A stretch of 59,623 nt of DNA from Fimbriimonadaceae bacterium (GTDB lineage Bacteria; Armatimonadota; UBA10988), in assembly GCA_020850355.1 (NCBI GenBank), contig JADZEX010000047.1, forward strand, positions 1 to 59,623, written 5' to 3'. Made by a program: the position numbers and the translations under genes. Below, one piece after another: positions 6,760 through 10,763 of the stretch. The stretch's first letter is position 1. Every line of letters begins with the position of its first letter. Below the pieces are notes generated by a model. The model was not told where the DNA came from. It did no database searches and worked only from the letters and a program-made list of their open reading frames with translations.

Positions 6760-7251
6760 TCAAGTGCTCTGCAGCGCCACGATCACCGCCAGCACCAGGG
6801 CCATCAGCGAGACCAGGCCGACGATGCTGCCGGCGCAGCCCGCCTTCTTGGGTGCGCCGCCGACCAGCCGGGCCCCCGCCGTTTCGGGATCGAAGCCGCT
6901 CGGCCAGACCGTCCGGCCGTTGTAGGTGGTGGCCTTGAGCACCGCGCCGCTCAGCGCCGCCCCGCGCAGCGAGGCGTCCTGCAGCTTGGCTCCGCTGAGG
7001 TCGGCGTTGGCCAGGAAGGCGCCGTCGAGGTTGGCGCCCGTCAGGTCGGCGTCGCTCAGGTCGGCGTCCTGCAGCGCCGCGCCCTGCAGGTCGGAGCCCG
7101 CCAGGTTGCAGCGCGCCAGGTTGCAGGTGCTGAGGTCGAAGCCCCGCAGGTTGGCTTGCGGCAGTTGCCGCCCGGACAGGTCCTTGCCGCTGAAGGAGCT
7201 GCCCTTCATGTTGACCAGCGAGGTGCCGTCGAGAGCGCAGATTTCTGGCAT
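6760..7251 (-). CDS. Pentapeptide-repeat protein with C-terminal membrane anchor
   Basis: 163-residue protein. Residues about 20-110 are A(D/N)LxX pentapeptide repeats (for example ANLRGFDLSTCNLARCNLAGS and ADLSDADLTGANLDGA) that should fold as a right-handed quadrilateral beta helix. A single hydrophobic helix at the extreme C-terminus (SIVGLVSLMALVLAVIVAL) gives a tail-anchored topology. The family has no single function; some members mimic DNA or protect gyrase, but nothing here shows that. It lies 100 bp downstream of trpG on the same strand. It converges with the DnaJ-like gene, leaving a 7-bp gap. Confidence 0.85.
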   Translation of the reverse strand: MPEICALDGTSLVNMKGSSFSGKDLSGRQLPQANLRGFDLSTCNLARCNLAGSDLQGAALQDADLSDADLTGANLDGAFLANADLSGAKLQDASLRGAALSGAVLKATTYNGRTVWPSGFDPETAGARLVGGAPKKAGCAGSIVGLVSLMALVLAVIVALQST

Positions 7252-9394: not shown

Positions 9395-9475
9395 CTGCTT
9401 CGCTCCCTTCAAGCCCAGCGCGCCGCGGCGCGCGGCCACCTCACCTGGGGCAGTTCCCGCGCCGCCTGGAAAGCG

Positions 9476-9506
9476 AAAACCACGGGTCCCGCTGTGGTCC
9501 CGTGGT
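9476..9506 (-). terminator. trp attenuator: intrinsic terminator
   Basis: On the minus strand ACCACGGG (9506-9499) pairs with CCCGTGGT (9486-9479) across a 12-nt loop and is followed by TTTT (9479-9476). The competing antiterminator arm GTCCCGTTGT (9543-9534) can pair at 9 of 10 positions with ACCACGGGAC (9506-9497), the left arm of this terminator. That is the classical arrangement of a transcription attenuator, and it lies between the leader peptide and trpE. Confidence 0.85.
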
Positions 9507-9547
9507 CTGTCTTCACGCTCAAGTCAACGCACGACAACGGGACGCAC

Positions 9548-9601
9548 TCAGGAAGTGCGCCACCACCAGCGGCCCTGCAGTGCGGGTCGTGCCGTCGTCA
9601 T
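9548..9601 (-). CDS. trpL: trp operon leader peptide
   Basis: 17-residue ORF MTTARPALQGRWWWRTS with three consecutive Trp codons at positions 12-14, ending 153 nt upstream of trpE. Its stop lies by a small hairpin (CGCACT 9559-9554 with AGTGCG 9548-9543), and the antiterminator and terminator follow. When charged tRNA-Trp is scarce, a ribosome stalled on the Trp codons should favour the antiterminator. The predicted transcription start is at or within one base of the ATG, with no Shine-Dalgarno possible, so the ORF is probably read from a leaderless RNA, as known for rhizobial trpL. Confidence 0.88.
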   Translation of the reverse strand: MTTARPALQGRWWWRTS

Positions 9602-9607
9602 ACAGGC

Positions 9608-9636
9608 GTTATACCACGTGGCGACAGCGACCGCAA
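9608..9636 (-). promoter_or_regulatory. Putative trp operon promoter
   Basis: On the minus strand TTGCGG (9636-9631), a 17-bp spacer and TATAAC (9613-9608). The -10 box ends 6 nt before the trpL ATG at 9601, placing the start at or next to the A of that ATG. This is the basis for calling the leader leaderless. Confidence 0.7.
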
Positions 9637-9661
9637 GGGCAGCCCATGGGATCGCGCGCTG

Positions 9662-9670
9662 TGCTAGACT
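9662..9670 (+). promoter_or_regulatory. Putative extended -10 promoter of the phosphorelay gene
   Basis: TGC-TAGACT at 9662-9670; no convincing -35 box is seen. The predicted start near 9677 falls next to the GGAGG of the gene at 9690, so the leader is very short. The same nonamer TGCTAGACT occurs upstream of the ATPase gene on the other strand at 43061-43069. This promoter faces away from the trp promoter about 30 bp off. Confidence 0.45.
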
Positions 9671-9689
9671 CGTGGCTGGAGGCAGCCTG

Positions 9690-10763
9690 GTGAGCAGCGC
9701 GCCGGATCGTCAACCAGACCACCCCGACGAGACTCTGGGGCGCTTGCTGCGGGCAGCCGGTCATGATCTGAACAACCACCTGCACGTCGTGCTGGCCGCC
9801 ACCGCCGCGCTCGGCACGGTTGAGCTGACGGCCGATGACCAGCAGATGCTGGTCGACGTCAGGCAGGCTGCCCAGAGCGCTGGCGCGGTGGTCGACCGCC
9901 TGTACGCCCTGGGCCGTTGCCTGACCGAGCCCGCCCAGCCGCAGGAGCTGGCGCTCTTGCTGGCCGATGTGGAGTTGCGGCTGGCCGAAGCTGGCCAGCT
10001 GCTGGTCGTCGACGAGCCGCCCGACTGTACCCTGCTGCTGGACAGCCAGCCCGCCACGCGGGTCTTGACCGACCTCTCGCAGGCGGCCGCCAGCGACGAC
10101 GGGCTGGTCGAGCTGGCGGTCAGCGTGAGCTCCGAGATTCGCTTCGGCTGGCCCTGGACGCCGGCTCTGCGGCTGTTGGTCGATCGCGTCCTGGACCCGG
10201 CCGCGGCGCTGCCGGCGCCGCAACTGGTGACGGTGCTGACGCTCCGCAGCCTGGTGCCGCGGCTCGGCGCCACCCTCGACCCGCGGACCACCCGCTTGGA
10301 GCTGGTGCTGCCGGTCGGGCCGCCGGCCGCCAGCGCCGCGGCGGCCCCCCGTGGGCCGGTCGCCGCGACCTCGCGACGTGTGCTGCTGGTCGACGACGAC
10401 CAGCTCGTCGCCGAATACCTCGAACGAGCCCTGCGACGGCGCGGCTGGGAGGTCTGCAGCGCCAGCGATGGCGAGGCGGCCTGGGAGCTGGTGCTGGCGG
10501 ACCCGCGCCCCTTCGCGCTGGTGGTCGCCGATGTGCAAATGCCGCGCCTGCGCGGTGACCAGCTCCTGCAGCGCCTCGCCGCCCATGGCCGCCACTGGCC
10601 GGCGCTGGTGGTGACTGGCTACAGCCACCGCGAAGCCCTCGACAATCTCGCCGCGCTGGGCCACCACGTGGTGCTCGACAAGCCGTTCAGCGACGATCTG
10701 CTGGACGCGGCGCTGGCGCAGGTGCTGGCCGGCCCGCCGCCGCCCGCGCCGCCGCCTCGCTGA
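9690..10763 (+). CDS. Histidine-phosphotransferase-like domain fused to a response-regulator receiver
   Basis: 357-residue protein. The N-terminus carries a DHp-like helix pair with GHDLNNHLHVVLAATAAL (His25), the HDxNN form of the kinase H-box. Residues about 80-215 resemble a kinase ATPase domain in length and order, but I see no N-box and no DxGxG or GxGxG motif. Residues about 230-350 form a full receiver domain: acidic triad D235-D237, phosphoacceptor D281 in VADVQMP, a TGY switch and a DKPF lysine. A DHp followed by a dead ATPase fold recalls ChpT-type phosphotransferases, here joined to a receiver. There is no membrane segment. GTG 9690 has GGAGG 7 nt upstream. The last 77 nt overlap the converging ligase-like gene. 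Confidence 0.8.
   Translation: MSSAPDRQPDHPDETLGRLLRAAGHDLNNHLHVVLAATAALGTVELTADDQQMLVDVRQAAQSAGAVVDRLYALGRCLTEPAQPQELALLLADVELRLAEAGQLLVVDEPPDCTLLLDSQPATRVLTDLSQAAASDDGLVELAVSVSSEIRFGWPWTPALRLLVDRVLDPAAALPAPQLVTVLTLRSLVPRLGATLDPRTTRLELVLPVGPPAASAAAAPRGPVAATSRRVLLVDDDQLVAEYLERALRRRGWEVCSASDGEAAWELVLADPRPFALVVADVQMPRLRGDQLLQRLAAHGRHWPALVVTGYSHREALDNLAALGHHVVLDKPFSDDLLDAALAQVLAGPPPPAPPPR

Follow-up and report, generated by a model that had tools for sequence, protein, structure and literature searches.

In Escherichia coli, the leader ORF of the trp attenuator, trpL, has a 5′ UTR and a ribosome site, unlike the apparently leaderless trpL described below. In Sinorhizobium meliloti, the trpLE(G) transcript begins at the AUG of trpL and contains consecutive Trp codons and a terminator (PMC7298713, PMC10117765). 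Further, RNA-seq showed that trpL1 and trpL2 of Streptomyces lividans are leaderless, and leaderless leuL, thrL and metL were described in Streptomyces (PMC8079986). Citing papers also attribute leaderless attenuator leaders to Corynebacterium (Morbach 2000, cited in PMC4046766) and leaderless poly-Cys attenuator ORFs to mycobacteria (Canestrari 2020, cited in PMC13236596). Previous descriptions of leaderless sensor ORFs come from scattered species, chiefly of Actinobacteria and rhizobia. The initial annotation of the DNA studied here was right that leaderless trpL is established in rhizobia, but its surprise at such a layout elsewhere was misplaced, given the two S. lividans leaders.

We analyzed a stretch of 59,623 nucleotides (hereafter the window) from a genome of 6.67 Mb, with a G+C content of 71% in the part analyzed. 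The genome belongs to Armatimonadota, a phylum that has received little study, and the initial annotation had correctly suspected a phylum distant from rhizobia. A promoter, a 17-codon leader ORF, an antiterminator, a terminator and trpE were found on the minus strand (Table 1), base for base where that annotation had placed them. The start codon of the leader lies 207 nt from that of trpE, and segments 2 and 3 pair at nine of ten positions. The U-tract of the terminator, TTTTcgcTTT, is short and interrupted. We consider it highly probable that trpEG is controlled here by a ribosome-mediated transcription attenuator with a leaderless leader mRNA.

Table 1. Features of the trp attenuator locus and of the genes that follow it in the window
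Feature	Position	Strand	Remarks
-35 box TTGCGG	9631..9636	(-)	3/6 matches to consensus
-10 box TATAAC	9608..9613	(-)	17-nt spacer; ends 6 nt (GCCTGT) 5′ of leader ATG
trpL leader ORF, MTTARPALQGRWWWRTS*	9548..9601	(-)	17 codons + TGA; ATG 9601-9599, TGA 9550-9548
Three consecutive Trp codons (WWW, codons 12-14)	9560..9568	(-)	
1:2 (protector/pause) hairpin, GGCGCACU-uccug-AGUGCGUC	9541..9561	(-)	encloses the stop codon
Segment 2, antiterminator 5′ arm, GTCCCGTTGT	9534..9543	(-)	
Segment 3, antiterminator 3′ arm and terminator 5′ arm, ACCACGGGAC	9497..9506	(-)	
Intrinsic terminator (segment 3:4)	9476..9507	(-)	hairpin 9507-9478, then TTTT to 9476
Shine-Dalgarno-like AAGGGAG of trpE	9403..9409	(-)	
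trpE, anthranilate synthase component I, 491 aa	7919..9394	(-)	PF00425, PF04715; ATG 9394-9392
trpG, glutamine amidotransferase subunit, 187 aa	7352..7915	(-)	PF00117

After trpG, the same strand encodes a pentapeptide-repeat protein whose C-terminus contains a hydrophobic stretch (6760-7251 (-)). In the product of a divergent ORF (9555-10763 (+)), the C-terminal domain is a response regulator, and Pfam assigns no name to the N-terminal part. The longest reading of this ORF overlaps trpL on the opposite strand, and its true start is therefore probably near 9690.

When the elements of the window were compared with shuffled sequences, an equally good promoter with its end 6-10 nt 5′ of the ATG was obtained in 0.5% of shuffles (p = 0.005). 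Against dinucleotide shuffles, the z scores were -4.1 for the terminator, -2.8 for the antiterminator and -2.0 for the 1:2 hairpin (42-nt fold). Further, the 2:3 duplex had an energy of -22.1 kcal/mol, as compared with -11.7 ± 2.1 kcal/mol for the null (p = 0.005). The description of the attenuator as complete was thus upheld, since the 1:2, 2:3 and 3:4 structures all surpassed shuffles and the core is conserved in relatives. A strict consensus scan of the window reported neither the promoter nor the terminator, because the -35 box is poor and the U-tract interrupted. For the same two reasons we count the copy in the window as a weak version, and it is the relatives that carry the argument. 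The minimum-energy fold pairs the 5′ end AUGACGACGG (9592-9601) with CCGUUGUCGU of segment 2 (9531-9540) (-). The start codon would then be hidden in untranslated RNA, which could hinder ribosome loading on the completed leader; no such pairing was seen in the folds of the two same-family relatives described next. The only other TGGTGGTGGCGCAC in the genome (C87) lies within an ordinary open frame that continues through it, and was rejected as a second trp attenuator.

Five genomes were sampled from the order of the source organism. Two genomes of the same family, whose loci we call L083 and L084, contain full trpE genes, with products 69% and 67% identical to TrpE of the window. Their leader peptides, MQAGSTTNRQWWWRTW and M(M)TRTSIAGTRWWRTD, keep the WW/WWW run. 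Both promoters (TTGACA and CATACT, 7 nt from the -10 box to the ATG) are stronger than that of the window, and both terminators have TTTTTT at the positions matching the weaker U-tract. When the attenuator core was aligned across the three loci, TGGTGGCGCAC, GTGYGTCCCG, GACCACGGGA and CCCGTGGTTTT were invariant except at one Y, and segment 3 was invariant in the relatives except for its last base in L083. As read from the alignment, the 1:2 helix changes from GCACU/AGUGC in the window to GCACC/GGUGU in L083 and L084 with pairing kept, and the change includes a two-sided replacement of U-A by C-G. The promoter spacer and the N-terminal half of the leader diverged among these relatives; the attenuator core alone was conserved.

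We examined the sequence upstream of trpE in about 130 genomes of Armatimonadota, which yielded about 128 usable upstream regions. Three features were required: a leader with WW/WxW, a promoter, and a terminator at or below -15 kcal/mol. All three were present in 38 upstream regions. The gap between the -10 box and the ATG was 6-10 nt in 24 of the 38, including both close relatives of the window, 13-14 nt in six and 17-24 nt in eight. When the stretch between the -10 box and the Trp codons was shuffled, only 0.57 gaps of 6-10 nt were expected. Note that related sequences are not independent, so that the ten families with such a gap (f1, f11, f15, f18, f23, f26, f29, f30, f35 and f38) are a safer count than 24 of 38. 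The 2:3 duplex was better than shuffles at p<0.05 in 21 of the 38. When the screen for a promoter and ATG was run with the Trp requirement removed, 24 of 128 trpE upstream regions matched, 23 of them with Trp leaders. The same screen detected no leaderless leader ahead of leuA or ilvB in 60 upstream regions of the phylum. These results suggest, at the level of sequence, that the leaderless form is the common form of trp attenuation across this phylum, which is rich in uncultured members.

The locus could instead be an ordinary trp attenuator, in which transcription starts further upstream and trpL, behind a short 5′ UTR, is translated by 30S initiation of a non-Shine-Dalgarno type. The poor -35 box of the window is consistent with this explanation, as are the relatives with 13-24 nt between the -10 box and the ATG, a few of which have Shine-Dalgarno sites (AGGAG in L086 and AAGGA in L097). 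Led versions therefore exist in the phylum, even within a single family: L097, with a 20-nt leader, and L103, of the leaderless type, both belong to f35 and encode homologous peptides (...ITGGKSSWxWR...). Because these two loci share a family and homologous peptides, the 5′ end can evidently switch while the attenuator stays, which would represent a recent switch of initiation mode. However, no promoter stronger than that of trpL was detected in the 520-base region scanned, and the spacing of 6-7 nt is common to the window, L083 and L084, the latter two with strong promoters. Further, trpE has a Shine-Dalgarno site, whereas none precedes the trpL ATG in the window, L083 or L084. We therefore regard an upstream start as unlikely. 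The predicted leaderless start named in the initial annotation agrees with the 6-nt gap, its retention in both relatives, its frequency in the phylum and the missing Shine-Dalgarno sites, and trpL is very probably leaderless, the exact start site and the mode of initiation being predictions.

Alternatively, the terminated leader could act mainly in trans as a source of sRNA and peptide, as do rnTrpL and peTrpL of Sinorhizobium, with attenuation being secondary. In two respects the locus recalls S. meliloti (PMC7298713, PMC10117765): termination is predicted to yield a small leaderless mRNA, and trpD is on a different contig from trpE, just as trpDC is apart from trpE(G) in that species. However, the trpD locus did not stand out from 255 genes of the same genome in its complementarity to the leader: the best stretch ranked 21st, in a crude test whose duplex energies span long, unrealistic G+C-rich helices. 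This test provided no evidence of trans action by the leader RNA or peptide. Moreover, the N-terminal half of the leader is poorly conserved, and conservation is confined to the attenuator core. We regard a chiefly trans-acting leader as quite improbable. Chance juxtaposition of a short Trp-rich ORF with a promoter-like string and a terminator, which might be entertained because each element is short on its own and the promoter is of middling quality, is refuted by conservation in the relatives, as well as by the position ahead of trpE and the controls, and has hardly any probability left.

For the leaderless attenuator that we favor, the elements, their order, their spacing and their conservation were read from the DNA and its comparison, and from these we infer the dependence on Trp. 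RNA polymerase would initiate at the A of the trpL ATG, give or take one or two bases, and a ribosome would enter at the 5′ AUG with no Shine-Dalgarno site to guide it. When Trp-tRNA is sufficient, the ribosome would reach the UGA and, because the stop codon ends 4 nt before segment 2, would cover that segment and permit the 3:4 terminator to end transcription, so that the released RNA would be about 126-130 nt long. Under Trp-tRNA shortage, the ribosome would stall at codons 12-14 and mask segment 1, leading to 2:3 pairing and readthrough into trpE; a ribosome with a codon of the Trp run (Table 1) in its A site would cover segment 1 and free segment 2. This stop and stall geometry is that of the classic E. 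coli trp attenuator. In many relatives segment 2 is inside the leader ORF, and translation through it would yield the same outcome. Untranslated RNA would terminate by default, because the predicted fold has segment 2 engaged with upstream sequence and the 3:4 hairpin in place.

In 388 kb of the genome, with 260 putative ORFs, -10-like boxes and promoters were not enriched 6-9 nt before starts, in a screen of limited power in which few sigma-70-like promoters score well. Leaderless initiation therefore does not look like a general habit of this genome, whose capacity for it we assume. We tentatively propose, as a possibility that may well prove wrong, that leaderlessness is a selected and recurrent property of the trp attenuator rather than a side effect of an abundance of leaderless genes in the genome. 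The trait would probably be ancestral in Armatimonadota and would occur also in Deltaproteobacteria-type genomes, Streptomyces and rhizobia, and leaderless and Shine-Dalgarno-led forms of homologous leaders would have replaced each other. If so, loading on the 5′ AUG would keep the first ribosome in close step with RNA polymerase. The survey makes it testable whether 5′-AUG initiation is favored for attenuators by this coupling. The suggestion that the trait is older or arose more than once is reasonable and fits these data, but is not a new idea.

The survey supplies about 38 candidate regulatory RNAs, and none of those tested matched the Trp_leader family of Rfam (RF00513). The window likewise had no gathering match to any Rfam family and nothing meaningful at E<=10, where RF00513 again gave no match; sub-threshold matches of the loci to miRNA and sRNA families were loose and were dismissed. 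Outside Armatimonadota, we screened named loci together with loci surveyed around one genome of Deltaproteobacteria. Trp-rich trpE leaders with a gap of 7-10 nt were obtained as screen candidates at L023, L040, L041/L263, L051, L257, L258/L261 and L268, and the remaining loci were led. Deltaproteobacteria-type genomes harbor L023, L040, L051, L257, L258, L261, L263 and L268. Among the best TrpE matches in Actinomycetota and Pseudomonadota, no convincing leaderless trpL was found, in a biased survey that did not recover the known Streptomyces case. The leaderless leader trait spans several phyla, because it is known in S. meliloti, S. lividans, Corynebacterium and mycobacteria and has candidates in Deltaproteobacteria.

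What is new here is a known type of attenuator in a new phylum, together with a comparative breadth beyond a single window. The mycobacterial poly-Cys ORFs and leuL, thrL and metL of Streptomyces are likewise leaderless sensor ORFs that precede an amino-acid gene, but serve other amino acids, several of them without a clear intrinsic terminator. S. lividans trpL1-trpE resembles the predicted layout of our locus in its leaderless 18-aa leader with WWW and in the hairpins and U-rich stretch before trpE (PMC8079986); it differs in belonging to Actinomycetota and in its monocistronic trpE, in contrast to trpEG in the window. The S. meliloti locus shares the start at the trpL AUG that is predicted here, the Trp codons, the terminator and the position ahead of trpE(G) apart from trpD. 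However, it belongs to Alphaproteobacteria, trans action is established for its leader, and the peptides share the Trp run only. E. coli trpL follows the same logic and ends in the same 18 bases, TGGTGGCGCACTTCCTGA (9548-9565 (-)), as the leader ORF of the window; the flanking sequence differs. Horizontal transfer from enterics is an unlikely source of this identity, as TGGTGGCGCAC is present in the same-family genomes and nothing else aligns; the same string is common to the window, these genomes and L243, from a Deltaproteobacteria-type genome. The identity with the end of E. coli trpL probably reflects the shared constraint of Trp codons and segment 1, and possibly deep homology.
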